This document shows, one piece after another, positions 21,514-36,442 of a DNA stretch of 64,000 bases. The notes under the pieces are model-generated. The model made no database searches. It was not told the origin of the DNA and saw only the letters and a program-made list of their open reading frames with translations. The first letter of the stretch is position 1; every line of letters starts with the position of its first letter. The stretch is from Fulvivirga imtechensis AK7 (lineage in GTDB: Bacteria; Bacteroidota; Bacteroidia; Cytophagales; Cyclobacteriaceae): contig NZ_AMZN01000055.1 of NCBI RefSeq assembly GCF_000331535.1, forward strand, positions 62,001 through 126,000, given 5' to 3'. A program made the position numbers and the translations under genes.

Positions 21514-21598
21514 AGAGGAGTGGCAGAGTGGTCGAATGCGGCGGTCTTGAAAACCGTTGTACCGCAAGGTACCGGGGGTTCGAATCCCTCCTCCTCTG
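21514..21598 (+). tRNA. tRNA-Ser (anticodon UGA)
   Basis: An 85-nt class II tRNA. The acceptor AGAGGAG (21514-21520) pairs with CTCCTCT (21591-21597), with discriminator G. The anticodon stem GCGGT/ACCGT encloses loop CTTGAAA with anticodon TGA at 21548-21550. A long variable arm (gtaccgcaaggtac) marks serine, and the T arm is GGGGGTTCGAATCCCTC. CCA is not encoded. Its 3' end is repeated at three other places downstream, so it is the likely integration target. Confidence 0.95.
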
Positions 21599-21634
21599 CA
21601 AGGAAAGCCTGAGTTAATCACCTCAGGCTTTTTT
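21585..21634 (+). repeat. att-like direct repeat, left copy (tRNA-Ser 3' end plus terminator)
   Basis: These 50 bases recur at 26917-26966 with one mismatch (A at 21616, G at 26948). The shared part begins in the T stem of tRNA-Ser and runs through the terminator T tract, the classic arrangement of an island inserted into a tRNA 3' end. Confidence 0.8.
21605..21634 (+). terminator. Terminator of tRNA-Ser
   Basis: AAGCCTGAG (21605-21613) and CTCAGGCTT (21622-21630) form a nine-base-pair stem with an eight-base loop, followed by T residues to 21634. Confidence 0.88.
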
Positions 21635-21668
21635 GTTTTCTACAAAAAACACTTAATAGGAAAGGGAT

Positions 21669-21766
21669 GAGAACCGAAGGGCAGGCCTGGGTTCGAAATG
21701 TAGCGTAGCGGAATTCACGAGGGGTTGTGCGGCACGCTCGTGGGTACGAGTAATCCCTCCTCCTCT
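21669..21766 (+). repeat. Island-boundary repeat, copy 1
   Basis: A 98-base stretch ending in AATCCCTCCTCCTCT, the tRNA-Ser 3' sequence. A copy about 85 percent identical by eye is at 36346-36442; both contain gaattcacgagggg and gggtacgagtaatccctc. The part before the tRNA-like end may be an old core/arm region or a decayed tRNA 3' half. No gene fits here. Confidence 0.6.
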
Positions 21767-21906
21767 TTATTTCGTCAACCATTTTTTACCTTTCTATAAA
21801 ACAGGTAATAGTGAAAAGATGTGAGTAAGGTGGAATGAAAGCACTATTACCATCAAAGACAGCACGCAGATTCCTGGCTGCTTCCCATCTTTCAAACACA
21901 TTCCAC

Positions 21907-22075
21907 AATCGTAAGAATTTGAATTCTGTCGCAAATTTATCGGGAAGGGAATATTTCCGGCAAAAACGTGGCGAGAGAACGGCCCTCCCCGAAAATCCTC
22001 ACCCAATTCCGTTCTTTTTTGCCGGAAATCCCCCTTCCCTGAGCCGGTGGCCCCATAATTCAAATTCTTACGATT
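21907..22075 (+). repeat. 169-bp nested palindrome before the RadC-like gene
   Basis: Outer arms 21907-21925 and 22057-22075 are a perfect 19-bp inverted repeat (aatcgtaagaatttgaatt). Middle arms gggaaggg...tttccggcaaaaa (from 21942) and ttttttgccggaaat...cttccc (to 22039) are near perfect, and gaacgg/ccgttc (21978-21983 and 22008-22013) continue the stem inward. The RadC-like ATG begins on the next base. It could be a structured leader RNA, a replication or transfer hairpin, or the end of a mobile unit. Confidence 0.65.
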
Positions 22076-22540
22076 ATGGAAAATTCAAAGAACAAAAAAT
22101 GGGAAGTAGCAGAAATTCAGCTCGTGTACAAGTCAAAGGTTAAGCCCTCCGAAAGACCATCTGTTAGCAGCTCTCAAACGGCTTACGAAGTATTTATCGA
22201 AGATTGGGATTCAGATAAAATCGGATTCGTTGAGGAATTTAAGGTTATGCTGCTCAACAGGGGCCACAGAGTCTTAGGTATATATAATTTGTCATGTGGA
22301 GGTACTACTAGAACTATTGTTGATCCTAAGTTATTATTTGCAGCAGCAATAAAGAGCAATGCCTCAAATATAATAGTTGCGCATAACCATCCGAGTGGAT
22401 CACGCAGGCCAAGTCAACCTGATATAAATATTACAAAGGTATTAAAGGAAATAGGTAAACTTCTGGAAATACCTTTGCTTGATCACCTGATTGTAACTAC
22501 TGAAGGATTTTTTTCCTTTAGTGATGAGGGGCTGTTATAG
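22076..22540 (+). CDS. RadC-like JAB/MPN domain protein
   Basis: 154 residues comprising only the JAB (MPN+) domain of RadC. The metal motif is visible: Glu54 (FVEEFKVMLLN), His103 and His105 in AHNHPSG, and Asp116 in RRPSQPDINIT. The helix-hairpin-helix half of chromosomal RadC is missing, as is usual for the short radC genes carried on Bacteroidota integrative elements. The catalytic role is unknown. It is the first gene after the island's left repeat and starts at the edge of the long palindrome. Confidence 0.88.
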   Translation: MENSKNKKWEVAEIQLVYKSKVKPSERPSVSSSQTAYEVFIEDWDSDKIGFVEEFKVMLLNRGHRVLGIYNLSCGGTTRTIVDPKLLFAAAIKSNASNIIVAHNHPSGSRRPSQPDINITKVLKEIGKLLEIPLLDHLIVTTEGFFSFSDEGLL

Positions 22541-22695
22541 CTCCTTTTTTGCTCCAATAGCAAAGCTTTCAATAAAGTAACGACTTTCACCGCGTAAACG
22601 GCATATTTATTCACATGTTTCCAATAGTGATTATCCGAGTGGCTAGAAATTCTTAATATTAAAGTCTATCTTAAGGTATTGATTTACAATTACCG

Positions 22696-23334
22696 ATGAA
22701 TAATTACCTAAAACTACTTCTTTATTTAAAACAATTTGAAGGGGATGGCAAAATGCACCCTATAGAACATCTTTTTCCGGGTCTTACTCTAAAGGAAAAA
22801 AAAGCCATCTTTAATGAACTAGTTGTTGAACGGCTTATTGCTATGGAAGGACGTGAAACAAAATACGATTCTTTCATAATGGAGGCAAATCTTGTTACAG
22901 GTAAAACTAAATGGACGGAAAGTCCACTCAACGAACTAAATCAAAGAGTAAAGGAGGACGAATTTCGAGCCAAAATAACATTTAGGGGTTCTAAATATTT
23001 AAAGGAGGAATTACAAATGCAGAATGAAGACAAGTATAGCATTAATGTATCGGGGACAAGTACGAACAATACATTTGTTATCGAATCAAGAGATGTGACA
23101 ATCAATAACAGAAATAATGCATCATACAAGTTGGATGAAATTATTGAAATTCTTAAAAAGGATGATACAATTAATGAAGAAGAAAGGACATCGATAGTAG
23201 GTGATTTTGTTCAAGCAAAACAGGCAATAAATCAAACCGGTAAATTACCAGAACGCTTGATGAAATCAATTTTAGAATATGGATCGCAATTTAGCTCCAT
23301 AGGGAATTTTATTTTTAGCCTGTTCCAATCTTAG
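22696..23334 (+). CDS. Unknown island protein with N-terminal winged-helix-like region
   Basis: 212 residues, family not recognised. Residues 1-105 look like an alpha/beta winged-helix-type fold (YLKLLLYLKQFEGDGK, LTLKEKKAIFNELVVERLIA, FRGSKYLKEEL). A short Asn/Thr-rich strand segment (INVSGTSTNNTFVIESRD) follows, then a charged helical region. The end is hydrophobic (SSIGNFIFSLF), which could insert in a membrane. Such HTH-linker-hydrophobic designs are seen in accessory and defence genes, but no function is shown. Five bases separate it from the next gene, so the two form an operon. Confidence 0.7.
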   Translation: MNNYLKLLLYLKQFEGDGKMHPIEHLFPGLTLKEKKAIFNELVVERLIAMEGRETKYDSFIMEANLVTGKTKWTESPLNELNQRVKEDEFRAKITFRGSKYLKEELQMQNEDKYSINVSGTSTNNTFVIESRDVTINNRNNASYKLDEIIEILKKDDTINEEERTSIVGDFVQAKQAINQTGKLPERLMKSILEYGSQFSSIGNFIFSLFQS

Positions 23335-23339
23335 CTGCT

Positions 23340-23912
23340 ATGGCCAAACCCAAAATAGTTTATGATCCTGATGGAAGTGTGGTTTTAGATAATATTGAAT
23401 GGACATGGGAATCTTTGAAGCATGTGTGCCATTCTGACTTTGTTTTTGAAGGGAAGCCGCGAGGATTTATTTGCCGGAAGTATAAACTGCCACGGGATAT
23501 ACTCAATGAATGGATAGAAAGTGAAAATTGGGAATACGATAGAAAATCACATTGGCAACGCCCCTATAGCTATAGAATTGATTCTGCCCTAAATAATCTA
23601 ATGATAAACATTTCGCATTTGGTTGAGATTCAGGAAGAAGTCAATGATATTGAATTTGATGAGAAAAATATTCTAAGTAGGATCAAAATCGATATTCAAG
23701 CCAAAGAGAATGACCAATGGAAAATTTATAAAACTCTTATTCTTGAAAAGTATGCTGTTCTGATTGAGGGAATTGGAGAGTATATTGGTTCCGAAAAAAT
23801 AAAAATTCTCGATGATACTGAAGAAATAAAGTATAAGGCCCAGGTCTCACCAGGAGAGATACTAATTCGTTATCTTAAAGAAAAGGGGAAAATCAAAAAT
23901 CCCCAAAATTGA
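23340..23912 (+). CDS. Unknown island protein, HTH-like N-terminus
   Basis: 190 residues, not recognised with confidence. The N-terminal stretch (WTWESLKHVCHSDFV, RKYKLPRDILNEWIESENWE, DRKSHW) weakly resembles the helix-turn-helix of phage terminase small subunits (IAxxYGVSxxTLxxWIxxEGWxxxR). The rest is charged and helical. It is co-transcribed with the preceding gene. It could be a DNA-binding partner of that protein or a phage remnant. Confidence 0.65.
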   Translation: MAKPKIVYDPDGSVVLDNIEWTWESLKHVCHSDFVFEGKPRGFICRKYKLPRDILNEWIESENWEYDRKSHWQRPYSYRIDSALNNLMINISHLVEIQEEVNDIEFDEKNILSRIKIDIQAKENDQWKIYKTLILEKYAVLIEGIGEYIGSEKIKILDDTEEIKYKAQVSPGEILIRYLKEKGKIKNPQN

Positions 23913-24062
23913 TTCTGGAAAGTCACATTTTTTTTTGATTTTTTTGAGATCATTAAGCAAAGCTGTTATTCACATCTTTGAACGGGACGTATAAATGAGA
24001 AATGATCTTTGGTTGTAATATCTTATTGTGTATCACATTTTTTGTTTAAAAAAATAATCAAG

Positions 24063-24122
24063 TCAGTATTTATAATACTGAAAATTGGAAATTTTTAAAC
24101 TAAATGCAATCTTTGGTTTAAA
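24063..24122 (+). promoter_or_regulatory. Candidate operators of the abiE pair
   Basis: TCAGTATT (24063-24070) and AATACTGA (24074-24081) form a perfect eight-base inverted repeat with a three-base centre. A second inverted repeat, TTTAAAC (24094-24100) and GTTTAAA (24116-24122), follows. Both precede the AbiEi ATG at 24143. AbiEi antitoxins of known systems repress their own promoter by binding inverted repeats. Confidence 0.5.
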
Positions 24123-24142
24123 TAAATCTGTATTTTGGTATT

Positions 24143-24922
24143 ATGAATACGGAAAAGTCATCCAAAATAAACCAACTTTTGAGATCGCAGCCATACGGTA
24201 CTATATTCACCAGCTCCTGGTTGGTTGAAAGAGGCTATAGTCTTGACTTACAGAAGCAGTACAAGAAAAGTAATTGGCTTGAATCAATAGGTTCTGGAGC
24301 GATGAAAAGAACCGGCGATGACATTCCATTAGAAGGGGCCCTTTTTGCCTTACAGCACCAATTGGGAATGCATATACATATCGGAGCGAAGTCAGCATTG
24401 GGCTTACAAGGAAAAGCACATTACCTAAAATTAAATGCTTCAAGAACATCATTGTTCGGGCCTTTAAAAGAAAACCCGCCCAAATGGTTCAGGGATCAAT
24501 GGAAAGATAAGTACAGCTTGACCCAAAGTGATTTTTTACCAGTAGACATAGGTGTAACTGATTTTGACTTTGGTGCCTATAAACTTAAAATTTCTACACC
24601 CGCCAGAGCTATCATGGAATGCCTGTATCTCGCACCTGAAAAACAACCCCTGATGGAATGCTATGAAATAATGGAAGGTCTGAATAATCTACGACCCAAC
24701 AGTGTACAGCAACTGCTTGAAAACTGTAATTCCATAAAAGTGAAAAGATTGTTTCTTTTTATGGCGGAAAAAGCCGCTCACCAATGGTTCCGATATATAA
24801 ACACCGAAAGTGTCGATTTAGGTAAAGGCAAACGAAGTATAGTGCCAAATGGAGTGTTTGATCAAAAATATCAAATAACATTACCCAAAGAACTAAAAAA
24901 AAAAGATGAACGAGGCATATAA
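24143..24922 (+). CDS. AbiEi-family antitoxin/transcriptional repressor
   Basis: 259 residues with the AbiEi layout. An N-terminal winged helix (SKINQLLRSQPYGTIFTSSWLVERGYS, KKSNWLESIGSGAMKRTGD) is followed by the AbiEi_3-type C-terminal domain (LHIGAKSALGLQGKAHYLKL-like segment, KISTPARAIMECLYLAP, LLENCNSIKVKRLFLFMAE). It is the antitoxin of the type IV AbiE toxin-antitoxin/abortive-infection family and probably autoregulates through the palindromes upstream. It overlaps the toxin frame by 17 bases, showing coupling. Intact here, although its partner is frameshifted. Confidence 0.85.
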   Translation: MNTEKSSKINQLLRSQPYGTIFTSSWLVERGYSLDLQKQYKKSNWLESIGSGAMKRTGDDIPLEGALFALQHQLGMHIHIGAKSALGLQGKAHYLKLNASRTSLFGPLKENPPKWFRDQWKDKYSLTQSDFLPVDIGVTDFDFGAYKLKISTPARAIMECLYLAPEKQPLMECYEIMEGLNNLRPNSVQQLLENCNSIKVKRLFLFMAEKAAHQWFRYINTESVDLGKGKRSIVPNGVFDQKYQITLPKELKKKDERGI

Positions 24923-25810
24923 AAGGCAGGTAAGTCTATTATTGGATGTACTTCCTTTTATTGCTGAGGAAGATGATATAGCATTGCATGGTGGTACGGC
25001 CATAAACCTTTTTGTCCGTAACATGCCCCGCTTATCTGTGGATGTAGATCTTACCTATCTTCCCATAGAGGATCGGGATACCTCATTAAAGAATATTGCA
25101 GCGATATTAAAAAGAATACAGACAAGGCTGGAATCAACTATAGAAGGAATATCCATTGAACCTAAAATAGACGTTGGAAAACTCTTTATTTCTAAAGAAA
25201 ATGCCTTAATAAAGTTGGAAATCAACCTTGTTGGCCGTGGTACTTATAAAAAGCCGGAAACAGCAATATTGTGCGAAAGTGCACAAGAAGAATTCGATGT
25301 ATTTGTGGAAATGAAGATGGTTCCCGTGCAGCAACTATACGGAGGGAAGATATGTGCTGCCCTTGATCGTCAACACCCTAGAGACTTGTTTGACGTTAAA
25401 TATTTATTGGAAAATGAAGGATTTTCAGGTGAACTAATAGCCGGATTTATCTTCTGTATCCTGGGAGCGAAAGACCCATTTATGAAATATTGAATCCCCA
25501 TCGGTTAGATCAAAAGGATGCCCTTTTAAACCAATTTGAGGGTATGACCTTAGAGCCTTTCACTTATGAAAATTATGAAGATACGAGAGAAAAGTTAATT
25601 GGGCTGGTGCAAAATTCCCTAACGCAAAAGGATAAGGATTTCTTAATAGGGTTTAAAGGACTACAACCAGATTGGTCTATTTACTCCTATGAACAATACC
25701 CTTCGATTAGATGGAAATTATTGAACCTACAGCGACTAAAAGATAACAATCCGGAAAAATACGATCAGCATGTAAATCGTCTTAAAGAATTCCTAGGTAC
25801 TTTGGAATAG
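24906..25810 (+). pseudogene. AbiEii-family nucleotidyltransferase toxin, frameshifted
   Basis: AbiEii/AbiGii nucleotidyltransferase fold: HGGTAINLFVR (GG at 29-30), SVDVDLTY (46-50) and QLYGGKICAALDRQHPRDLFDVKYLL. The first frame stops at 25493 after AKDPFMKY. The second frame (25466-25810) continues the family sequence without a gap as SERPIYEILNPHRLDQ, ending in LKEFLGTLE. The break lies at CTGGGAGC (25461-25468) and is explained by loss of one G from a G run. Either the toxin is dead, or this is a sequencing or assembly indel. Product if intact: about 300 residues. Confidence 0.8.
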
Positions 25811-25873
25811 TCATCATAACTACTGGTTTCAACCACGTTAGTATTAAAGTCAAAGCTTTTTTAAATGTAGCCT

Positions 25874-26473
25874 ATGCAAAAGTGTCTTAAATGTACTGAT
25901 TCATTTATCTTAGTAAACACTATTTATTTATATCATGATATTTACGAGTGCGGCAATTGTGGCTATTGGGAATTTAAAAGAATTGAGAAGTGCTGCAGAA
26001 AACCTTACCTAATAGTGACCATTGATCATAAAAGCTCCGGTCAATTTTTCCTGTACTGGCAATGTACAAACTGTGGTGGATCAACCAATAGAAGCAAACC
26101 CCTGAGCTCAAAAATTTATGGTGAAAAAATCAGGAATGAATTTTCCATCAGCGCTTTTGAGGCTTGGAAGTATGCAAGAAACAACGAAGGTGCATGCTTG
26201 GCTGAAGATAGGAAGCACTACAATCTGGTGAATTCCAGGTATTACAAATATCACTCCTATATTGCCTCAGATGAATGGAGAAAAAAACGTAAGCTAGTTC
26301 TGGAACGTGATCATTACCTGTGCCAGGAGTGTAAGGAGAGGCCAGCAGAAGAAGTTCACCACAAAACCTATAACAACCTTTTTGATGAACCTTTGGAGGA
26401 TTTGGTGTCGTTGTGCAAGAAATGCCATGACGAAGTTCATGAGAAGAAGCGTTCCGGGTTAGTAGATCGGTAG
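25874..26473 (+). CDS. HNH endonuclease domain protein
   Basis: 199 residues. The N-terminal half has several Cys pairs (CLKC, CGNC, CTNC) that look like zinc ribbons. The C-terminal half has an HNH nuclease: YIASDEWRKKRKLVLERDHYLCQEC, EVHHKTYNNLFDEPLEDLVSLCKKCHDEVH, with the HH pair, Asn and CxxC...CxxC zinc frame in place. It may be a restriction-like defence nuclease or a homing-type gene of the island; the sequence does not decide. Single gene after abiE. Confidence 0.8.
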   Translation: MQKCLKCTDSFILVNTIYLYHDIYECGNCGYWEFKRIEKCCRKPYLIVTIDHKSSGQFFLYWQCTNCGGSTNRSKPLSSKIYGEKIRNEFSISAFEAWKYARNNEGACLAEDRKHYNLVNSRYYKYHSYIASDEWRKKRKLVLERDHYLCQECKERPAEEVHHKTYNNLFDEPLEDLVSLCKKCHDEVHEKKRSGLVDR

Positions 26474-26486
26474 CTATGTATGCCTC

Positions 26487-26668
26487 CTATCGCTTTATCT
26501 GATTTTTAAACTTTTTAAAGTTCTTCAGCAGCCACTCATTTACATCATTATACTGGCGATAAAGATGGGATTTATCAATTGCTTGAATGCCTGCCTGTAG
26601 AATAGTTTCCTTAGCCTTTTGTCCACTACATCGTTATCTAAATAGAGAAGTGCTAATTTTATCCAGTA
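26487..26668 (-). pseudogene. TOPRIM primase C-terminal remnant
   Basis: On the minus strand the sequence reads LALLYLDNDV and, after a one-base frame change near 26631, QKAKETILQAGIQAIDKSH then LYRQYNDVNEWLLKNFKKF to a stop at 26487-26489. LDND with the downstream pattern NDVNEWL is the end of the CHC2/TOPRIM primases carried by Bacteroidota mobile elements. The matching N-terminus lies just beside it on the opposite strand. Confidence 0.6.
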
Positions 26669-26684
26669 TCAATAATAAGTTGAG

Positions 26685-26916
26685 GTGAACATACAGCAGT
26701 TGAACGAGCAACCTATTGTGGACTTCCTGGAAATGGAGGGCATATATCCCCGCATAAAAAGGGGTGTGAGCTGGTGGTATATCTCCTCGATCCGCCCCCT
26801 TGAAAAAACACCCTCATTTAAGGTGGATACCCGGATCAACTCACCCATAATGGTACCAAAACCTTGGAATATATGTAAGCGGTTGGGGGTGAGGTTGTTA
26901 CAAAGGATAAAAAAAC
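26685..26916 (+). pseudogene. CHC2/TOPRIM primase N-terminal remnant
   Basis: From GTG at 26685: MNIQQLNEQPIVDFLEMEGI, RGVSWWYISSIRPLEKTPSF, KVDTRIN, which matches the start of mobile-element DnaG-like primases (zinc-finger region, KTPSFKV). After RIN the frame runs out of family sequence and into the right att-like repeat at 26917. The gene is broken at both ends and lies head to head with its own C-terminal piece, which points to an inversion plus deletion. Confidence 0.55.
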
Positions 26917-26966
26917 TCCCTCCTCCTCTGCAAGGAAAGCCTGAGTTGATCACCTCAGGCTTTTTT
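26917..26966 (+). repeat. att-like direct repeat, right copy (tRNA-Ser 3' end plus terminator)
   Basis: 50 bases identical to 21585-21634 except one position. It includes the last 14 bases of tRNA-Ser and a complete working terminator hairpin (AAGCCTGAG...CTCAGGCTT plus seven T). No intact tRNA precedes it. Confidence 0.8.
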
Positions 26967-27074
26967 TCTACTATTAGTGTCTGCGGGATCACTGAGTCTT
27001 CTGTGCAAGAAATTCTAATACTTTTTTAATGTACTTTCTTTTAAATTTTCTATGAGGATTTTTAACATTAGTGG

Positions 27075-27170
27075 ATGTTTAGAAATCCTTACAAACTGAG
27101 GTTGGCCATTCTTATGATCATTTTAGTCACAGGTTTGATGCTTGCACTGCTTAAATTTTTCTTTCCTTAA
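27075..27170 (+). CDS. Possible 31-residue membrane peptide
   Basis: ATG at 27075 to TAA at 27168-27170 reads MFRNPYKLRLAILMIILVTG then LMLALLKFFFP. It has a basic start and one hydrophobic helix, the usual look of a small membrane protein. No clear ribosome-binding site or promoter. Could be chance. Confidence 0.3.
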   Translation: MFRNPYKLRLAILMIILVTGLMLALLKFFFP

Positions 27171-27200
27171 TACTTTAGTTAATAGAACTTTTAAGTGATG

Positions 27201-27292
27201 AATTAGTGTCTATAAGAAAACTCTAAGTGGTGCGAGAGCATTTTTGGAACGAGCGTAACGCGGACATAGGCGTTTTCTTAGAGACACGAATT
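27201..27292. mobile_element. MITE-like element, copy B (short)
   Basis: Terminal inverted repeats 27201-27221 and 27272-27292 match at 19 of 21 positions. The interior keeps gcgagagcatttttgg and gcgtaacgcggacat but lacks the CCCGCC hairpin of copies A and C, so this is an internally deleted form of 92 bp. Confidence 0.78.
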
Positions 27293-27299
27293 AATTTAT

Positions 27300-27708
27300 A
27301 TGAATAACCATAAGTCCGCCTAATGAGATTGTACAGGCCCTGATAGTGATTATAGCAATTGTAACAGGGTATGAACAGTCGGCAGTTGGCAGTAGAGCCT
27401 CAAGCTGTTAGTTTCAGGCAAACGTTCAAAGCCTATCGGCAGCGGGCAAGGAAAGTATTGTGTATCTAGTCGTGAGTCTCCGACCTTAGCCTTCGGGCTG
27501 TCTCAATACTCAAAACAAAAGAGAGTCATGAGTAACTTAGTGGTGAATATTGAGTAGAATGGCGGCAATACGAACGATAAAATGAGATACTCTTGTTTTA
27601 ATACTCAGTACTAATATCAATACTAATATTATGTACCGACCATTCTTACTTAGTATCTTAAAAATTATATAATATACTATCATTCATACCTATTAAGGAT
27701 TAATCAAA
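27300..27708. repeat. Gene-free low-complexity spacer before the two-component genes
   Basis: Short repeated words fill this stretch: cggcagttggcagta (27381-27395), gcagcgggcaagg, ccttcgggctgtctcaatactcaa (27490-27513) and atactcagtactaatatcaatactaatatt (27601-27630). The same vocabulary is found at 2636-2829 and 34680-34816. No open frame of note. The response-regulator ATG at 27709 is preceded by aaggattaatcaaa. Confidence 0.5.
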
Positions 27709-28395
27709 ATGAAGCACATTTTACTTGTTGAAGATGAACCAAGTGTGGCATCATTTATAAAAAAGGGGCTGGAAGAAGAGGGGTATCAGGTCACACTGGC
27801 ATATGATAGTTTTTCTGCTATTCAATTACTTTCACAAATCGGTACCGACCTGATTATTCTGGATATCATACTTCCAGGTGAAAATGGTATTGAGCTATGC
27901 CGGAAAATTAAGACACACAAGTACTCGTCTTCACCTATCCTGATACTAACCGCTTTGGGTTCAACAGAAAATATTGTTACCGGACTGGATAGTGGCGCAG
28001 ATGATTATCTGACCAAACCCTTTAAGCTGAAGGAGCTTCTGGCTAGAATCAGGGCTTTGCTGAGACGAAGAGACAAATTTGAAATGGAGGAAAATGATAC
28101 CTTAGGTATTGCAGACCTAACCTTGGATAGAAATGCGAAAACGGCTAAAAGATCCGGTAAGCCAATAAAATTGACTTCAACGGAATATAGACTCCTCGAA
28201 TATTTTCTTCGAAACAAAGGGAAAGTACTTTCCCGAATAGACTTGCTTGAGAATGTATGGGACATAAATTTTGATCTGGGTACAAATGTGGTAGACGTTT
28301 ATGTGAATTATTTAAGGAATAAAATCGATAAGGGTTTCAGTTCAAAACTTATTCATACAGTTTTTGGCATGGGATATACAATGAAGGAGGAGTAA
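27709..28395 (+). CDS. OmpR-family response regulator of the RND pump locus
   Basis: 228 residues: a receiver domain with DE at 9-10, phospho-acceptor Asp52 in LIILDIILPGENG and Lys in DYLTKPF, then an OmpR/PhoB winged helix (IKLTSTEYRLLEYFLRNKGKVLSRIDLLENVW, TNVVDVYVNYLRNKID, HTVFGMGYTM). It resembles CusR/RprY types. Seven bases before the kinase gene. Two near-identical TCTAAT direct-repeat sites downstream (29925 and 30175) are its most likely binding sites. Confidence 0.92.
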   Translation: MKHILLVEDEPSVASFIKKGLEEEGYQVTLAYDSFSAIQLLSQIGTDLIILDIILPGENGIELCRKIKTHKYSSSPILILTALGSTENIVTGLDSGADDYLTKPFKLKELLARIRALLRRRDKFEMEENDTLGIADLTLDRNAKTAKRSGKPIKLTSTEYRLLEYFLRNKGKVLSRIDLLENVWDINFDLGTNVVDVYVNYLRNKIDKGFSSKLIHTVFGMGYTMKEE

Positions 28396-28402
28396 AAAGA
28401 AG

Positions 28403-29785
28403 ATGAAGATCCGAAAGAAAATAACCCTGATCTATGTTGTGCTGACCGGTGTTTTATTGTTAGCGTTGTTCATTCTTATTTATCTGTTTTCCAATACTTA
28501 CACCAAATCGGAATTTTTCGACAGGCTTAATGGCCGGGCAAAAATTGTGGCACAGATCTACCTTGAAAAGGATGAGCTGAGTTCAATTATATATGATGAG
28601 GTAAGAAAAAAACACTCTCAAATACTGCCTAATGAAAGAGAGGCTGTTTTTAGGGTAAATCTTCAGGAATCGGTGATTTTACATGATACGCTGTTTTCGG
28701 AGCTTCCGAAGAGCTTTCTTTATAAAATATTAAAAGATAAAGAAGGAAGTCTAAAAATAGAAAATACATACTATTCAGGAATATTATATTTTGATAACCA
28801 AGGTGATTTTATTGTGATCTCCTCAGCGGATAATATTTATGGGGAGGCCAAAATGAATAACCTGGCGCAAGTATTAATAGTGTCATTTCTTTTTACTATA
28901 CTTTCCCTTTATATAATTGGCAGATATTATTCGGGTAAAGTTTTAGAGCCCATTACCAAAATTACCAATAGTGTAAATTCTATAACGGCCACAAATCTTC
29001 ATTTAAGGTTGCCAATAGAAAATAATAAAGATGAATTGGGGGAACTGGCAAGAACATTCAATAATATGCTTGACAGACTTGAGAGCACTTTCGATCTTCA
29101 GAAGACCTTTATTAATAATGCATCACATGAATTGAAAAATCCATTGGCGGTTATTTTAGGAGAAGCTGAAATAGTGTTAAAGAAGAAGCGGCATGTTGAA
29201 GAATATATTGCAGCTCTGGCGTCTATTGAAAACGAAGCTCATCGTTTGGAAATTTTAATCAATAGCTTACTACAACTCGCTCAGGCTGGAAATGTTTCAG
29301 GAGAACAACTGATCGAACCCATAAGGATCGATGAGTTGTTGATTCAGGTAAAAGGTTATTTCAACAAAGTATATCCGGCAAATCGTATTCGGCTCGACTT
29401 CAGCAACTTACCAGAAGACCAACATAATTTAGTTGTAAATGGTAGTTCCAGTTTACTAACAGTATCTATTACCAATATAATGGATAATGCCTGCAAATTT
29501 TCCAATAATCAACCTGTGATTGTTCAGCTTCACCATGAGTCATCACATATAATGATTACCATTATAGATTCTGGTATTGGTATCCCTGAGAATGACCTGC
29601 AAACGATAAGCGAGCCTTTATACCGGGCTGAAAATGCGAGAGGAATTAATGGTTTTGGAATAGGATTAACACTGGCCCATAAAATTCTTAGAATGCATAA
29701 AGGCTCCCTACATGTAAAATCAGCCATAAATGAAGGAACTACGGTTACTGTCAAACTTCCTGTTTCCGCAACATCAGCCGACTAA
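28403..29785 (+). CDS. Sensor histidine kinase of the RND pump locus
   Basis: 460 residues: helix 1 (8-30), a periplasmic sensor of about 125 residues, helix 2 (157-175), HAMP (176-228), HisKA with His242 in FINNASHELKNPLAVILGE, and HATPase with N box NIMDNACKFS, G1 IDSGIGIP and G2 INGFGIGLTLAHKI. It is CusS/RprX-like. The ligand is unknown. It forms a cognate pair with the OmpR-type regulator and is followed by the efflux genes it probably controls. Confidence 0.9.
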   Translation: MKIRKKITLIYVVLTGVLLLALFILIYLFSNTYTKSEFFDRLNGRAKIVAQIYLEKDELSSIIYDEVRKKHSQILPNEREAVFRVNLQESVILHDTLFSELPKSFLYKILKDKEGSLKIENTYYSGILYFDNQGDFIVISSADNIYGEAKMNNLAQVLIVSFLFTILSLYIIGRYYSGKVLEPITKITNSVNSITATNLHLRLPIENNKDELGELARTFNNMLDRLESTFDLQKTFINNASHELKNPLAVILGEAEIVLKKKRHVEEYIAALASIENEAHRLEILINSLLQLAQAGNVSGEQLIEPIRIDELLIQVKGYFNKVYPANRIRLDFSNLPEDQHNLVVNGSSSLLTVSITNIMDNACKFSNNQPVIVQLHHESSHIMITIIDSGIGIPENDLQTISEPLYRAENARGINGFGIGLTLAHKILRMHKGSLHVKSAINEGTTVTVKLPVSATSAD

Positions 29786-29924
29786 AGTTCATTACCAGAC
29801 CGTATTATTTCGATAGGATTGAATTCTTCGTGCTTTTATAACCTTTTTGCTTGCCTGTTATTATGTCAAAAGAGGGTGGTAATCTAATCCTTCTGTATCT
29901 ATTCATAAATTTTCACCTTTGAGG

Positions 29925-29966
29925 GAATTCTAATCTTTCTCTAATCATTTTCTTAACATTTACTAA
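29925..29966 (+). promoter_or_regulatory. OmpR-type direct-repeat operator R1
   Basis: TCTAATctttcTCTAATcattttCTTAA, with starts spaced 11 bases apart, is the spacing of OmpR/PhoB-family half-sites. The same block recurs as R2 at 30177-30218. R1 precedes the 55-codon gene at 30011. Confidence 0.55.
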
Positions 29967-30010
29967 AAAGCTGATCGTTTATGCTTATAGAACGATAAAA
30001 CATTTTTGAT

Positions 30011-30178
30011 ATGAGCCTTTCACTTTTAGAATACAGCAAAACCATTCTTGAAAAAGTCAGTTTTGATACGATCCTTTTTGCTAAAGAATACAAGAAGGCT
30101 TTCTTACAACTCCAAGGGGCAGAACGATTGCAACTGAAACAGTGGGTAAGGAATTTAAGGACCATCCGCAGGTGGTAA
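30011..30178 (+). CDS. Small 55-residue protein between the two-component genes and the RND pump
   Basis: ATG 30011 to TAA 30176-30178: MSLSLLEYSKTILEKVSFDT, ILFAKEYKKAFLQLQGAERL, QLKQWVRNLRTIRRW. It is helical, amphipathic, basic at the end and soluble. It begins after operator R1 and ends at the edge of operator R2. I recall similar small EYSK-ILEKVSFD proteins as hypothetical genes in Cytophagales, but cannot verify that here. The function is unknown; position suggests it is co-regulated with the pump. Confidence 0.65.
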   Translation: MSLSLLEYSKTILEKVSFDTILFAKEYKKAFLQLQGAERLQLKQWVRNLRTIRRW

Positions 30179-30218
30179 TTCTAATATCCCTCTAATCTTT
30201 TTCTTAAATCTTCTTAAT
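30177..30218 (+). promoter_or_regulatory. OmpR-type direct-repeat operator R2 before the RND adaptor
   Basis: AATTCTAATatccCTCTAAT... repeats operator R1 with few differences over about 40 bases, including both TCTAAT boxes and the CTTAA box at the same spacing. It lies 30 bases before the adaptor ATG at 30248. Confidence 0.55.
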
Positions 30219-30247
30219 CACCTAAAACTATATTCGTGTTAAAAAAT

Positions 30248-31414
30248 ATGAAAACGAAAAAATCAATAGCAATATTAAGTTTAGGGGTTCCGGTATTACT
30301 GGTTTCCCTCTATTCTGTTTTTTTTACTGTAGATACTGAAGAAAGTTTAGTGGATAACAAAACAGTAGATACATTTGAAGTGGTTCATCCTGCGGTCATT
30401 GATACCGCCTTTTCCAGGGATTACATAGCCACTCTTCATGCTGCCCGGCACGTTGAAATACGTTCTCGCATCAGAGGATTCCTTGAAGCCATTCACGTTG
30501 ATGAGGGGCAAAAAGTGCAAAAGGGACAACTATTATTCAGCATAAGCAAAAGTGAATATGAGACGGAGCTTTTAAAAGCTACATCGGCATCTAACAGTGC
30601 CATGGCTGAGTTAAAGGCTGCTGAAGTGGAGTGGCAGAGTACTAAAGAGCTGGTTGATAAAAATATAGAATCAGTAACTCAATTGAACCTGGCGCAAGCA
30701 AAAATAGATGCGTTAAAAGCTAAAGTTGATGAAGCGCGATCTCATGAGAAAAGCGCAAAGTTACAGGTGTCATATGCTGAAATTAGGGCGCCTTTTAATG
30801 GTACCATAGGCAGGATACCCAATAAAGTGGGGAGCCTTGAAGAGGAGGGAGCACTACTAACTACAATATCAGACAATAGCACCATTTATGCTTATTTCAA
30901 TGTTTCCGAACGGGAGTACCTACAAATATTTGACAAGGAGCAAAAATCAAATGATCAGGTAAACCTCATTCAGGCAGACCAGAAGGTATATCCTCAGCCA
31001 GGAGCGATCGAAACATTAGATAATGCTGTGGATCACGCTACCGGAACAATAACCTTTCGGGCTTCCTTTCCTAATCCGACAGGAAGGCTTATACATGGCG
31101 CTACAGGAAAAGTGCGGATAAACACTCTTTTGGAAAATGCGCTGGTCATACCACAGGCGGCTACTATGGAAGCACAGGACATCATGTATGTTTTTGCGGT
31201 AAATGATAACAACATTATAGAAAGAAAAAAAATAACTCCTGCCTACAGGCTACCGCGTCTATATGTAATAAATGAAGGGCTTAGTAAGAATGATAAGATC
31301 ATTTTCAAAGGGCTGCAACATGTATATGATGGGCTGAAGGTGGAGACTGAAGTCGTAAATTTTTTGCAATCTGCCCATAAGAATGATGAGAACCTGGCTT
31401 TCTCAAAAAATTAA
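30248..31414 (+). CDS. RND efflux periplasmic adaptor (MexA/AcrA family)
   Basis: About 388 residues from the ATG at 30248; the frame also opens with GTG at 30236. An N-terminal membrane anchor (IAILSLGVPVLLVSLYSVFF) lacks a lipobox. The lipoyl half-motif is RSRIRGFLEAIHVDEGQKVQKGQLLF, an alpha-hairpin covers about 100-165, the second lipoyl half is YAEIRAPFNGTIGRIPNKVGSLEEEGALLTTI, and the beta-barrel contains TGTITFRASFPNP. It bridges the inner-membrane pump and the outer-membrane channel encoded next. Confidence 0.92.
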   Translation: MKTKKSIAILSLGVPVLLVSLYSVFFTVDTEESLVDNKTVDTFEVVHPAVIDTAFSRDYIATLHAARHVEIRSRIRGFLEAIHVDEGQKVQKGQLLFSISKSEYETELLKATSASNSAMAELKAAEVEWQSTKELVDKNIESVTQLNLAQAKIDALKAKVDEARSHEKSAKLQVSYAEIRAPFNGTIGRIPNKVGSLEEEGALLTTISDNSTIYAYFNVSEREYLQIFDKEQKSNDQVNLIQADQKVYPQPGAIETLDNAVDHATGTITFRASFPNPTGRLIHGATGKVRINTLLENALVIPQAATMEAQDIMYVFAVNDNNIIERKKITPAYRLPRLYVINEGLSKNDKIIFKGLQHVYDGLKVETEVVNFLQSAHKNDENLAFSKN

Positions 31415-31472
31415 ATTCCTCTAATTCCAGAACTTAAATCTATACCCAATAGTGGGTATCCAGTAAAAAAAA

Positions 31473-34400
31473 ATGGATAAATTCATTCAACGACCGGTAT
31501 TATCAATTGTAATATCACTGATGCTCACCATTATGGGGGCGCTGGCCATTATCCAACTACCTGTTGCCCAGTTTCCTGAGATCGCGCCACCAGTGGTTGG
31601 TGTTACTGCAGAGTATGCGGGAGCGAATGCTGAAACATCGGTTAAAGCCGTTATTCGCCCCTTGGAAATGGCTCTTAATGGTGTTCCGGGCATGAAATAC
31701 ATGTCTTCCGATGCTGGAAACGATGGTACCAGTATTATTCGTATTGCGTTTGAAACCGGTACTGACGCAGATATCGCTGCCGTGAACGTGCAGAACAGGG
31801 TAGCTTCAGTGATCGGCAAGCTGCCAGAGGAAGTGAGGCTCTATGGCGTTAAAGTGTCCAAGGAGGTAAATAGTATATTGCTATACCTGAACATCTCCAG
31901 CTCAGATGAATCCATGGATGAAAAGTTTATACACAATTTCGTCCATATTAATGTTCTGGAAGAGCTGAGAAGGATAAAGGGTGTAGGGTTCATAGACATT
32001 TTAGGTCAACGGGAATATGCCATAAGAGTGTGGCTCAAACCAGACAGGCTTTCAGCTTATAAACTTTCCGTAGATGAAGTAATTGAAGCCCTTCAGGAAC
32101 AGAATATCGAAGCTGCTCCCGGAAAAGTAGGTGAAAGCTCTATGAAGGACTCGCAGTCTATGCAATATATCCTCAAATACACGGGCAGGTTTACAGAGGA
32201 AGAGGAGTATAAAAAAATACCTATAAGAGCCACATCGGATGGGCTGATCCTAAGGTTAGGTGATGTGGCTGATATAGAATTCAGCACTGCCTATTATGAT
32301 ACATATGCCAAGTTAGATGGAAAACCATCAGCAGCTATTATTATAAAACAGCTACCGGGAACAAATGCCCAGGAGGTAATCGAGAATATCAAAAGTAAAA
32401 TGGAGGAGCTGAAGGAAAAGACCTTTCTGCCGGGAATGGACTATTCATTTGGTTATGATGTTTCAAGATTCTTGTCTGCCTCTATGGCGCAGGTATTGAA
32501 AACCTTTCTTGAAGCATTCCTTTTGGTTTCGTTGGTAGTATTCATTTTTTTGGGAGATGTCAGATCCACTTTGATCCCTGCGATCGCGGTGCCGGTATCA
32601 CTCATAGGCACCTTTTTCTTTATGCAGCTTTTTGGCTTTTCCATTAATATGATCACTCTTTTTGCCCTGGTGCTGGCAATTGGTATCGTAGTAGATAATG
32701 CCATTGTTGTAGTAGAAGCGGTACATGCCGAGATGGAAGCTAAGGGGGTGAATGCTTTAACGGCTACACGCAATTCCATGAAGAAGATAACGGGTGCGAT
32801 CGTAGCTATTACACTGGTGATGTCAGCAGTTTATATCCCAATGGCCTTTATGTCAGGACCGGTCGGTGTTTTTTATCGTCAATTTTCTATTACGCTGGCA
32901 ATATCTATTATCCTGTCGGGTGTGGTTGCTCTCACGCTTACACCAGCCTTATGTGCAATTTTGTTAAAGAACCCTCACCATGAAAATGGCAGACAAAGAA
33001 AGAAAAACTTCATAGATAAGTTTATTAGCGGCTTTAACAGGCGATACAACGCCCTTGCAGATAAATACCGCCGAATAATAGAGCTCATAATTAACCGGAG
33101 GGCAGTAACCTACGGTGCATTGATCATTTTTTGCCTTGTTACATTTCAATTCAGCAGTATAATACCCACGGGTTTTATACCTAATGAGGACCAGGGGATC
33201 TTATATGCCAATGTTCTGGCCCCTCCGGGTGCGACAGTTGAGCGTACTCAGGAGGTGGTTGATGCCATACAAGATGTGGCCAATTCTCTTGATGCGGTTC
33301 AGTCTGTTTCAACCCTTGCTGGTACCAATATTTTCTCTGACGGTACGGGTGCACCTTATGGTACGGTTTTAATAAATCTTAAGAACTGGAGTGAGCGCAA
33401 GGAGACTGTAGATGAAGTAGCAGAGCTCCTGCGTGAAGGAACGAGGCATATTAAGGATGCAAATATAGATTTCCTGCCACCACCTGCTGTTCCCGGCTAT
33501 GGTAATGCCGGTGGGTTTGAATTGCGATTCCTTGACAAAACCGGTAGTGATGACCTTCATAAAATGGAGTCAGTGATGAGAGACTTTGTAGATGAGCTTA
33601 GAAAACAACCCGAAATAGAAAGCGCATTTTCGCTTTTTGATAATAATTATCCTCAATATTTATTACGTGTGGATTATGATAGGGCTGCAAAACAAGGAGT
33701 ATCTGTTAATAATGCGATGACTACTCTTCAAACGCTGTTAGGGGGTGAATGGGCATCTGATTTTATCCGTTATGGAAAAACCTACAGGGTAATGGTGCAG
33801 GCGCACCCCGGCTACAGGGCTCAGCCTGAAGACATTCTTAAGCTCTATGTTAAGAATAAGGCGGGAGAGATGGTACCCTATGCCTCTTTTATGGAAATCG
33901 AGAAGGTATTGGGCCCCGAGCAGATAACAAGATATAATATGTATACTTCTGCTGAAATAAACGGAGAGCCAGCGCAGGGGTATAGTAGTGGAAGCGCCAT
34001 TGCTGCAATTCAAAGAGTGGCAGCAGAAAAATTGCCCCGTGGCTATGATATTGCATGGGCCGGAATGACCTATGACGAGGTAGCCACAGGAGACCAGGCC
34101 GTATGGATTTTCCTGATCTGTCTGCTGTTTGTATACCTCTTACTGTGCGCGCAGTATGAAAGTTTTCTTTTACCATTATCAGTGATCCTTTCACTACCCG
34201 TGGGGATATTCGGTGCATTCTTTTTGTTGTGGGTATTAAATCTTGAGAATAATATCTATGCACAGGTGGCCATGGTGATGCTCATTGGTATGTTAGGTAA
34301 GAATGCCATCCTGGTCGTTGAATTTGCCCTCCAAAGACAGCGCGAAGGCCTAACGCCTTTAAAAGCAGCCATCGAAGGGGCTACCGAACGATTAAGACCT

Positions 34401-34640
34401 ATCCTTATGACATCATTTGCCTTTACCGCGGGACTCATACCTCTTGTTTTCGCATCAGGAGCTGGTTCCATAGGTAACAAAACCATCGGTGCCGCCGCTG
34501 CCGGAGGAATGGTATTTGGAACACTTATAGGAGTTTTGCTGATTCCGGGGCTTTATTTTGTTTTTGCCAGCCTTCGTGATAAGAAAAAGCCGGTGCAGAC
34601 CGGAAATTCAATTCCCACAGAATATGTAGTTGCGAAATAA
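31473..34640 (+). CDS. RND efflux permease, HAE1/AcrB family
   Basis: 1,055 residues, the full family length. It starts MDKFIQRPVLSIVISLMLTIMGALA. The proton relay is in helix 4 (VLAIGIVVDNAIVVVEAVHAEM, the DN pair in place of the DD of AcrB). The RND B motif GLxxKNAILVVEFA occurs near the C-terminus (IGMLGKNAILVVEFALQRQ). Twelve helices and two large periplasmic loops are evident. It probably exports drugs or hydrophobic compounds as a trimer; the HAE1 type argues against a metal pump. Confidence 0.95.
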   Translation: MDKFIQRPVLSIVISLMLTIMGALAIIQLPVAQFPEIAPPVVGVTAEYAGANAETSVKAVIRPLEMALNGVPGMKYMSSDAGNDGTSIIRIAFETGTDADIAAVNVQNRVASVIGKLPEEVRLYGVKVSKEVNSILLYLNISSSDESMDEKFIHNFVHINVLEELRRIKGVGFIDILGQREYAIRVWLKPDRLSAYKLSVDEVIEALQEQNIEAAPGKVGESSMKDSQSMQYILKYTGRFTEEEEYKKIPIRATSDGLILRLGDVADIEFSTAYYDTYAKLDGKPSAAIIIKQLPGTNAQEVIENIKSKMEELKEKTFLPGMDYSFGYDVSRFLSASMAQVLKTFLEAFLLVSLVVFIFLGDVRSTLIPAIAVPVSLIGTFFFMQLFGFSINMITLFALVLAIGIVVDNAIVVVEAVHAEMEAKGVNALTATRNSMKKITGAIVAITLVMSAVYIPMAFMSGPVGVFYRQFSITLAISIILSGVVALTLTPALCAILLKNPHHENGRQRKKNFIDKFISGFNRRYNALADKYRRIIELIINRRAVTYGALIIFCLVTFQFSSIIPTGFIPNEDQGILYANVLAPPGATVERTQEVVDAIQDVANSLDAVQSVSTLAGTNIFSDGTGAPYGTVLINLKNWSERKETVDEVAELLREGTRHIKDANIDFLPPPAVPGYGNAGGFELRFLDKTGSDDLHKMESVMRDFVDELRKQPEIESAFSLFDNNYPQYLLRVDYDRAAKQGVSVNNAMTTLQTLLGGEWASDFIRYGKTYRVMVQAHPGYRAQPEDILKLYVKNKAGEMVPYASFMEIEKVLGPEQITRYNMYTSAEINGEPAQGYSSGSAIAAIQRVAAEKLPRGYDIAWAGMTYDEVATGDQAVWIFLICLLFVYLLLCAQYESFLLPLSVILSLPVGIFGAFFLLWVLNLENNIYAQVAMVMLIGMLGKNAILVVEFALQRQREGLTPLKAAIEGATERLRPILMTSFAFTAGLIPLVFASGAGSIGNKTIGAAAAGGMVFGTLIGVLLIPGLYFVFASLRDKKKPVQTGNSIPTEYVVAK

Positions 34641-34825
34641 CTCATGACATGAGCATAAATTTTAGTCATATCCCGATAGTGATATAGTGATCGGGACAGG
34701 CAGGATGAATAGCCGGCGGTTGGCAAAAAAAGGGTGAGTAATATTTGAGCGTATTCAATGATGCACTTTGGCCTTCCGACTGCGGTCTTCGAACTATCTC
34801 AATACTCAATACTAAATAGATACAC
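34641..34825. repeat. Low-complexity spacer within the efflux operon
   Basis: Contains atagccggcggttggcaa, gccttccgactgcggtcttcgaactat and the 19-mer ctcaatactcaatactaaa (34798-34816), which also lies before the aldolase gene. No gene. The 19-mer ends 9 bases before the next ATG. Confidence 0.5.
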
Positions 34826-36250
34826 ATGAAATATAGACAATTTAGTGCTGTTGCAATAGTTGTTGCTTTTAGCATAACATCATGCAAGACGTCAAAAGTA
34901 GTGCAGGATCAGGTATTGCCACTACCGGATACCTACTCCTATAATAATGATTCCACCAATTTAGCAAACGACACCTGGGTTGAATTCTTTGATACCCCTG
35001 AATTGGTAGCGTTAATTGACTCCGCACTACGTCATAATCCTGACCTGAATATGGGGTTGCAGCGTTTGGAGATGGCTAGAGCTGATGTTATGTATAGAAG
35101 GGGGCTGCGAATGCCAAATTTAAGTATAGAAGGTTGGGGAGGGCAGGCACGCACGGCAGAAAACTCAGTAAACTGGGCCGGCAATGAGGGCGGAACTTTT
35201 ATTTCCGGAGATCCTCTCAACCCAACTTACACTGATTATTATCTGGGTTTACAAACCACATGGGAAGCAGATGTATGGGGAAAGCTGAAAAATAGAAAAA
35301 AAGCAGCAATATCACGATTTTTAGCTTCAATTGAAGGAAAACATCTGGTGACTTCAAACCTGGTCGCTGACATAGCCGCAGCATACTATCAGCTCGTTTC
35401 ACTTGATCATCAGCTTGAAGCAATACAGGAGACCATAAAGGTTCAGGAAGGGGCGCTGGATATTGTAAGGGTGCAAAAGGAAGCAGGTAGGGCCAATGCT
35501 TTGGCAGTGCAACAATTTGAGGTGCAGTTGCTAAAAGTAAAAGGTATGGAGAGAGAAATACTGCAAGAGATTAATGCTACTGAGAACCTGATCAACTACC
35601 TCACCGGCAGATACAATACATCCATTGAAAGAAATAGTGGTGATCTGGAAGATGTATTCTCTGTTAGTCTATCGCCCGGACAACCTGCACAGCTATTGCT
35701 GAACAGACCTGATATTAAACAGGCAGAGAAAGAGCTTGAAGCATCAAAAGCCGATGTGCGAGCCGCCAGGGCTGCTTTTTATCCTACAATAGGATTATCA
35801 GCAGGTGCAGGATATAATGCATTTAAACCGGATCTGCTTTTTCAGTTTCCCCAATCAATAGCTTTTAACCTTTTTGGTAATTTAAGTGCACCGATTTTGA
35901 ACAGATCGGCAATAAAATCTGAATTCCACTATGCCAATGCTGTGCAATTAGAGGCATTGTACAACTACCAAAAGGTTATTTTAGTGGCTTATACTGAAGT
36001 GAGTACTGAGTTAGCTAATTTCGAAAATCTTAAAGAGCAATATAAACTTAAAAACCAGGAAGTTGATATTCTCACCAACTCAATCGAGACATCATCCGAA
36101 CTTTTTAAAACGGGTCGTGCTTCTTACCTGGAGGTATTGTTAACCCAGCAAAATGCATTGGAAGCCAGAATGGAATTAATTGAAATGAAACAGAGGCTTT
36201 TCCAATCGAGAATTAACATGTATAAAGTCTTAGGTGGGGGTTGGCGATGA
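34826..36250 (+). CDS. Outer-membrane efflux lipoprotein (TolC/NodT family)
   Basis: 474 residues. A lipoprotein signal (AVAIVVAFSITSCKTSK) has lipobox ITSC, followed by two OEP repeats: one with NPDLNMGLQRLEMARADVMYRRGLRMPNL and LVADIAAAYYQLVSLDHQLEA, the other with NRPDIKQAEKELEASKADVRAARAAFYP and LEVLLTQQNALEARMELIEMKQRL. It forms the outer-membrane channel of the RND pump. Last gene of the locus. Confidence 0.92.
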   Translation: MKYRQFSAVAIVVAFSITSCKTSKVVQDQVLPLPDTYSYNNDSTNLANDTWVEFFDTPELVALIDSALRHNPDLNMGLQRLEMARADVMYRRGLRMPNLSIEGWGGQARTAENSVNWAGNEGGTFISGDPLNPTYTDYYLGLQTTWEADVWGKLKNRKKAAISRFLASIEGKHLVTSNLVADIAAAYYQLVSLDHQLEAIQETIKVQEGALDIVRVQKEAGRANALAVQQFEVQLLKVKGMEREILQEINATENLINYLTGRYNTSIERNSGDLEDVFSVSLSPGQPAQLLLNRPDIKQAEKELEASKADVRAARAAFYPTIGLSAGAGYNAFKPDLLFQFPQSIAFNLFGNLSAPILNRSAIKSEFHYANAVQLEALYNYQKVILVAYTEVSTELANFENLKEQYKLKNQEVDILTNSIETSSELFKTGRASYLEVLLTQQNALEARMELIEMKQRLFQSRINMYKVLGGGWR

Positions 36251-36292
36251 GATTATGATCTTCTCCTTCCCTGCAAAAGTTAAGCTTGGGCA

Positions 36293-36308
36293 TAAGCTCG
36301 GGCTTTTT
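36293..36308 (+). repeat. 16-bp direct repeat flanking the GHKL/DUF4325 block, left
   Basis: TAAGCTCGGGCTTTTT here and at 38503-38518. The left copy follows tgcaaaagttaagcttgggca and lies 43 bases behind the efflux channel gene. It may be part of a terminator rather than an attachment site. Confidence 0.4.
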
Positions 36309-36345
36309 TTTGGTTTCCTCACGATATATTTAAAAGTGAGAGAAT

Positions 36346-36442
36346 CAGAACCAAAGGGTAGGCCAGGATTCGAAATGTAGCACAGCGGAATTCACGAGGG
36401 GCTGTGCGGCTGCTGGTGGGTACGAGTAATCCCTCCTCCTCT
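36346..36442 (+). repeat. Island-boundary repeat, copy 2
   Basis: 97 bases, about 85 percent identical by eye to 21669-21766, ending AATCCCTCCTCCTCTG, the tRNA-Ser 3' sequence. The gene-free stretch from 36251 to 36586 otherwise holds only this repeat and the 16-bp repeat at 36293. Confidence 0.6.

Follow-up and report, generated by a model that had tools for sequence, protein, structure and literature searches.

The RtT RNA of Escherichia coli (RF00391) is reported to be released as an RNA from a tRNA transcript and to have an effect on the stringent response, as cited in PMC4986893, where members near Asn and Lys tRNAs were also reported in Actinobacillus; the association of such units with multiple host tRNAs is, therefore, not itself new. 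A different kind of element, the genomic island, is usually recognized by a tRNA 3' end repeated in direct orientation. We analyzed a stretch of 64,000 nucleotides from Fulvivirga imtechensis AK7 (contig NZ_AMZN01000055.1, positions 62,001 to 126,000 of the forward strand), referred to as the window, in which the 3' end of the tRNA-Ser(UGA) gene is repeated. An earlier note on this DNA regarded this repeat as the two ends of one island at 21585-26966. Our analysis suggested that the repeat is probably one part of an array in which RtT-like units follow tRNA-Ser(UGA) and which hosts accessory modules. What can be read in the sequence itself is the presence of several tail copies, the units, arms matching the tRNA, the unlike halves of one tail copy (copy 2), and the absence of the module B genes (the DNA between these halves) from the loci of the tested relatives. 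The elements of the array are as follows.

21514..21599, + strand: tRNA-Ser(UGA) (Rfam RF00005, 58.9 bits)
21585-21634, + strand: tail copy 1 with terminator, belonging to the 3' end of tRNA-Ser(UGA)
21657..21751, + strand: E1, RtT-like unit of ~95 bp, downstream of the tRNA terminator and ending in tail copy 2
21752..21766, + strand: tail copy 2, left part (AATCCCTCCTCCTCT), with no terminator behind it
26915..26966, + strand: tail copy 2, right part, with terminator (from the repeat match and terminator comparison)
36258..36311, + strand: degenerate tail copy 3 and its terminator (alignment begins at 36263; start set by eye)
36334..36427, + strand: E2, second RtT-like unit, with a diverged 5' arm and ending in tail copy 4
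36428..36480, + strand: tail copy 4 (AATCCCTCCTCCTCT) with a degenerate terminator (core match at 36428-36442, terminator comparison)

The direct repeat of the tRNA-Ser 3' end and terminator, reported previously as 49/50 bp, was confirmed: the 50-mer (TCCCTCCTCCTCTGC..TTTTTT) at 21585-21634 recurred at 26917-26966 with one mismatch (98% identity). The 6.74-Mb genome had no other equally good match to the tail region, and the four remaining matches were 28-64 bp at 78-93%. The core AATCCCTCCTCCTCT matched four times in the window (0.17 expected): without mismatch at 21583, 21752, and 36428, and with one mismatch at 26915, always on the + strand. Another string, CCCTCCTCCTCT, occurred five times genome-wide, four of them in this array; no tRNA was found at the fifth (contig C47, locus L052). 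The earlier note saw two of the at least four tail copies, and missed E1, E2, two further tail copies, and a degenerate fourth copy. Copy 3 aligned locally with the tRNA-Ser tail region with a score of 24 (shuffle maximum, 16; reached by 0/1000) and, under stricter scoring, with a score of 26, which was reached by 1/1000 shuffles. Terminators were also compared with those behind tRNA-Ser in 13 relatives, shuffles being mononucleotide in this comparison and in the copy 3 alignment. Against the terminator of G014, copy 1 scored 24, the right part of copy 2 and copy 3 scored 17 each, and copy 4 scored 21 (0/300 shuffles in every case), and the terminators of G002 and G006 resembled the same copies (0 or 1 of 300 shuffles). 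The left part of copy 2 (21752) was unlike the G014 terminator: its score of 6 was reached by 292/300 shuffles. Because of this terminator comparison, copy 2 was regarded as split into 21752-21766 and 26915-26966, and the ends of the intervening DNA (module B) were set there.

E1 started with an inverted copy of the T-stem, AAGGGAT (6/7 positions), followed by GAGAACC..GGTTC, and had the core ATTCACGAGGGG..GTGCGGC..GTACGAGT. E2 was 89% alike over 36344-36442. A model (R1) built from eight units of this kind (type 1), including E1 and E2, scored 111.5 and 93.7 bits, respectively, on these two building units in the window; beyond them, R1 gave two weak matches (E 0.07 and 0.12). One unit of the array would consist of the tRNA tail from the T-loop on, the terminator, a spacer, and a hairpin (E), the outer stem of which would be formed with the inverted T-stem copy, and the array probably held at least four tail copies. 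An origin of the unit core in phages was rejected, since the viral contig set contained no exact match to it.

Matches between these units and RtT were found in both directions. The Rfam RtT model aligned with E1 from end to end (1-130/130) at 19.6 bits (library-wide E 0.11-0.16) and with seven further units (G010, G272, and G219) over 1-130/130 at 23.8-32 bits; in the locus scan, the RtT model had 7 matches outside E. coli, every one of them on an E unit. In the other direction, R1 ranked 4/4 of the E. coli tyrT RtT repeats first among 17 matches, with E-values (rough, since 2.5 kb was searched) of 5.2e-4, 5.4e-4, 5.5e-4, and 4.7e-3, followed by 0.52. R1 also detected two units in G010 (E 0.0012) of a second type (type 2), with the same arms and a shorter hairpin, GAGAAGTTTATCCCG..CGGGAA; six type-2 sources had no match to the RtT model. 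Since the two models matched each other's units but the Rfam scores were below the cut-off, these units are called RtT-like, not RtT, and on their scores lie outside formal membership of RF00391. They appear to carry the RtT repeats of E. coli and Pasteurellaceae into another lineage. Among the literature matches listed, in which subscription papers are poorly covered, there was no description of such units in Bacteroidota, and an RtT-like array has apparently not been reported so far in this lineage.

An E-like search of 15 genomes of the genus (own genome included) gave matches in 10/15 at E <= 0.05, those in three of the ten (G005, G007, and G013) being of 21-26 bp only. When 23 unit loci were scanned, 10 had a same-strand upstream gene for tRNA or transfer-messenger RNA (tmRNA) (Ser-GGA, Pro, Cys, Val, and tmRNA), 1 had a tRNA on the opposite strand only, and 12 had none. 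A unit at a tRNA or tmRNA gene ended with the tail of that gene itself, and most units opened with the inverted T-stem of their host tRNA, followed by GAGAA. Hosts comprised Ser, His, Asn, Met, Pro, Val, Cys, Leu, Lys, and tmRNA genes. Type-1 cores were also seen elsewhere: at L070, L072, L076, L077, and L078, there was no tRNA in the stretch examined, and at L062, L063, L071, L081, and L083 (G002 and G006), the core (TTCACGAGGGG..GAGTAA, with variants) was inside arrays resembling clustered regularly interspaced short palindromic repeats (CRISPR), just past a repeat of the array. In a further CRISPR-like array (L086, contig C13 of the own genome), one spacer had the tRNA-tail-like sequence GGGGGTTCGAATCCCTC.

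In four genomes, including that of the window, 20/156 tRNA or tmRNA genes had their own tail copied (18 nt, allowing 3 mismatches) within 700 bp downstream (10/44 in the own genome, 6/30 in G010, and 4/40 in G272 from another genus), and the control, in which tails were paired to the wrong gene, gave 1/5749. This survey covered 44/45 genes of the own genome and 42, 30, and 40 of the 43, 32, and 40 Rfam rows of G007, G010, and G272, respectively; tmRNA was included for the own genome (G000) and G010 only, and genes at contig ends had little downstream DNA. Two of the 20 loci (Ala in G000 and Met in G272) enclosed a GIY-YIG gene, one was the tRNA-Ser(UGA) locus of the window itself, and the repeat extended at least 28 bp into the terminator flank at 11/20. 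In the own genome, tail and terminator were duplicated without an island behind the genes for His, Asn, Met, Trp, and Ser-GGA tRNAs and tmRNA; other genomes had such duplications behind Val, Leu, and Ser genes. The repeat that usually serves as evidence for an island is, therefore, found here behind approximately one in eight surveyed genes, mostly island-free, and islands called from tail repeats alone may be misplaced or false. An inverted T-stem (at least 6/7 positions) before GAGA[AG] followed 13/156 genes (6 in the own genome, 4 in G010, 3 in G272, and 0 in G007; control, 0/2412).

Pairing in the arms was assessed using units that all had the GAGA[AG] anchor (27 units, reduced to 17 rows by removing one GIY-YIG cassette and same-gene repeats; this set contained neither E2 nor the Cys unit at L059, which lacks the anchor). 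In the outer stem, 110/126 cells of 14 rows were paired (permutation mean, 80.4; maximum, 101), with a slight bias towards pairing because the anchor was the best of several choices; together with the three tmRNA rows, the value was 118/153 (permutation maximum, 108). In an alignment of eight type-1 rows (A1, E2 included), 91.3% was paired versus 83.6% in shuffles (0/500). The type-2 units, reduced to a single row for each combination of genome and arm (20 rows, or 18 in the case of the inner stem), paired in 89/120 cells of the outer stem (maximum, 86) and 34/36 of the inner stem (maximum, 33), and both stems covaried. The type-2 motif was present in 15/88 genomes of the family, representing 15 genera (reversed control, 2/88). 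Thirty of its 39 places were checked: 22 were within 600 bp behind a same-strand tRNA, four had less than 230 bp of upstream DNA, and four had no tRNA within 600 bp. A survey with an exact pattern, which was too strict, found 3/291 genomes, own included.

Several results weigh against an array of RtT-like units. Every RtT match outside E. coli (19.6-32 bits) was below the gathering cut-off of 45 bits, and there was no RtT match (E up to 5) for E2, seven type-1 sources, and one of the two L150 units. DNA folding of E1, E2, and one G272 unit was not clearly beyond that of shuffles (z -0.89, 0.25, and -1.25, respectively). The tmRNA and Cys units lacked the GAGAA arm. Tail copies were present behind 0/42 genes of G007, a complete genome, such that arrays are patchy. 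The terminators of 8/13 relatives (G007, G009, G003, G012, G004, G005, G011, and G010) had no clear likeness to any copy. The two ends of the second module in the array (module C) had no clean shared core. Finally, no close strain was seen with copy 2 whole and module B absent, and the order of events is unproved for this reason.

The DNA between the two parts of copy 2 contained the following features.

21767..26914, no strand: module B, AT-rich accessory DNA of 5.1 kb
21901..22081, no strand: imperfect inverted repeat with 66-nt arms, 76% complementary, upstream of the RadC-like gene
22076..22540, + strand: RadC-like JAB-domain protein (PF04002, 7.8e-37)
22696..23334, + strand: unknown-function protein of 212 aa (no Pfam, PADLOC, NCBIfam, or plasmid match)
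23340..23912, + strand: unknown-function protein of 190 aa (no Pfam, PADLOC, NCBIfam, or plasmid match)
24143..24922, + strand: AbiEi antitoxin (PF11459 and PF17194; PDLC02227, 1.4e-88)
24906..25810, + strand: AbiEii toxin gene, interrupted (open reading frames (ORFs) 24906-25493 and 25490-25810 in different frames)
25874..26473, + strand: HNH endonuclease-like protein (PF01844, 19.4 bits, below the cut-off of 21.4)
26685..26900, + strand: toprim/primase N-terminal fragment, ending near tail copy 2 (tblastn to plasmid records)

The content of module B was as previously described: radC-like, two unknown genes, abiE, HNH, and a primase remnant between the repeats. None of the eight ORFs tested was an integrase (Pfam, PADLOC, and other profile searches). 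Its accessory nature was also borne out by a G+C content of 0.369 versus a mean of 0.422 (standard deviation, 0.019) in 40 overlapping 5-kb windows outside, and by the lack of a match for any ORF at the loci of the 13 relatives. The PADLOC model PDLC02290 covered AbiEii at positions 1-185 in the first ORF (also matched by PF08843) and 188-289 in the second. The break at 25480-25500, where the ORFs overlap, is a pseudogene or a sequencing error, and no solved structure was found for AbiEii by sequence. The HNH-like protein matched the IscB model at 24.3 bits (E 1.5e-5; cut-off, 175). Residues 1-52 of the primase fragment matched plasmid records (42-46% identity in the best 6 of 10), three of which were annotated as toprim. 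The radC region (21790-22540) had no second copy in the genome, and only a 37-bp match (to 21798-21834) was found in contig C8. Since no integrase was found and the AbiE toxin gene and primase are broken, module B is probably a decayed passenger.

The flanks of module B shared a 13-bp core, TCCCTCCTCCTCT, at 21754-21766 and 26917-26929, so that the tRNA 3' end is directly repeated on either side of the module, as expected for an island. When module B was omitted in silico, E1 was followed by the 50-bp tail and terminator, as at the 11/20 surveyed loci with a repeat reaching at least 28 bp into the flank. The comparison of terminators indicates 21766/21767 and 26914/26915 as the best-supported ends. 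In the simplest account, module B entered a whole copy 2 at TCCCTCCTCCTCT, splitting it and leaving the core at both ends; an integrase-type insertion at a spare tail copy would have left the genuine tRNA intact. Module C would have come in between copies 2 and 3. We infer this order of events and the loss of the integrase.

The features of module C are as follows.

26967..36257, + strand: module C, two-component system and resistance-nodulation-division (RND) efflux set
27709-28395, + strand: response regulator
28403-29785, + strand: histidine kinase
30236-31414, + strand: HlyD/CusB-type adaptor
31473-34640, + strand: RND pump
34826-36250, + strand: outer-membrane efflux protein

No integrase was found in module C. 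A short inverted repeat (..GTGTCTATAAGAAAACTC..) at 27198-27295 seemed, by eye, to recur in another contig (L073), as a separate interspersed repeat. A Por secretion tail was also encoded in the window.

The most probable of the alternatives keeps the array, and assumes that homologous or illegitimate recombination at the repeats, without an integrase, brought in both module B and module C. We regard this account, taken for both modules, as possible but not the favored one. It agrees with the lack of an integrase in the array, the stop of the primase fragment near a tail copy, and the absence of a shared core at module C. An integrase-type insertion would be expected to leave an exact core on either side, like the 13 bp flanking module B, but a crossover at repeats gives the same outcome; as judged from these sequences, the integrase-type entry of module B and recombination at the repeats appear to be about equally probable.

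The tRNA-Ser locus was compared in the 13 relatives. The left flank was conserved at 12/13 loci (the flank queries were unmatched in G013). None of the eight module B ORFs matched at these loci (in G002 and G009, these include less than 400 bp of right-flank DNA), and the set contained no exact empty site, because the right flank was unshared. The right flank of the window was found at none of the 13 loci, except that the protein at 51382 had weak (25%) matches in G006 and G014; G002 and G009, with less than 400 bp of right-flank DNA, were uninformative in this respect. Only weak (25-26%) response-regulator matches to module C were found at these loci (G003 and G010). A tyrosine integrase began ~250 bp behind tRNA-Ser in G007 and G005, and tRNA-Ser as a site of variation in the genus was supported. 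In G010, tRNA-Ser was followed by two tandem type-2 units and no module B gene; by its sequence, this locus is the nearest thing to a pre-invasion array.

One integrative island at 21585-26966, whose 50-bp attachment repeat includes tail and terminator and whose integrase was lost, appears improbable. A 50-bp repeat at 98%, AT-rich accessory cargo, and integrases at tRNA-Ser in two relatives all speak for it; however, the island as proposed would enclose E1 and a third tail copy beside its left end, the terminator-less copy at 21752 is left unaccounted for, and duplications of tail and terminator without an island occur behind other tRNAs, which argues against the repeat being the two ends of one island. 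The limits of 21585-26966 were not upheld either: the terminators point to a split copy 2, and a second module is located farther right in the array. Serial accretion, in which elements successively entered the tRNA-Ser tail, each leaving an attachment copy, with E1 and E2 as the ends of two related elements, is similarly doubtful: several tail copies in the same orientation with gene modules between them, and the use of tRNA-Ser by integrases in two relatives, are in its favor, but E-type units with matching arms, often tandem and gene-free, follow many tRNAs, and some match E. coli RtT in both directions.

By homology with RtT RNA, read-through transcription of the tRNA probably extends into the units of the RtT-like array, which would then be excised from the transcript. 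Arms matched to the host tRNA could be accounted for in any of three ways: a mobile element may copy them, they may form by repair when a nuclease has cut the T-loop, or pairing may be selected. A more speculative possibility, to which we give little weight, is that RtT-like units are mobile tRNA-tail elements, distributed far beyond gamma-proteobacteria, that pass between tRNA or tmRNA genes and re-tailor both arms for each host, with the tails as decoy landing sites and GIY-YIG cassettes possibly supplying the enzyme. If so, the supplied tail and terminator would keep the tRNA intact, and islands would integrate without touching the tRNA gene.

Among known systems, tRNA-anchored islands and tandem accretion share with this locus the tRNA 3' end as an insertion point, direct repeats, accessory cargo, and a variable right flank; they differ in that the repeat here is not island-specific, module B splits a spare tail and not the tRNA, and no integrase was found. 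Repetitive extragenic palindromic (REP) elements with REP-associated tyrosine transposases (RAYT) are similar as short repeated intergenic hairpins, and the genome has seven Y1_Tnp matches, whereas the arms of the present units copy the neighboring tRNA. A REP/RAYT origin was rejected: the longer E motifs were in 0/7 Y1 loci (1.7-3.2 kb each), and what L153, L154, and L156 had in common with the units was limited to strings of 6 to 8 bases (for example, ATCGGG and GATGAGAA). A Y1-transposase-like gene (PF01797, 7.3e-6) was also seen ~4 kb behind tRNA-Ser in G007 (L041:8042-8587).

The GIY-YIG cassettes seen here occupy the same position, in the order tRNA, terminator, cassette, and tail copy, and are apparently tandem, but have a nuclease gene and no GAGAA arm. 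A GIY-YIG gene was directly behind Ala (G000:C15:194347-194778; L138) and Met (G272:C1:728962; L215) tRNAs, and behind it the tRNA tail, or almost the entire tRNA, was repeated. In G272, there is a second cassette after the first, and a near-identical one begins at the end of contig C33 in G000 (L143). No description of GIY-YIG cassettes behind tRNA genes was found among the literature matches listed, and their shared position may serve as a lead only.

The closest likeness is to E. coli RtT behind tyrT and tyrV: as seen in L272, tandem units have an inverted T-stem arm with GAGAA behind it, then a GGTTCGA segment, ..GAGTAATCC, and finally the tRNA tail. In contrast, the units in the present study follow many tRNA genes and tmRNA, and gene modules sit in one array. 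Most of them, except for the tmRNA and Cys units, have arms matched to the host tRNA, and this match makes the spread and function of the units testable by comparison.

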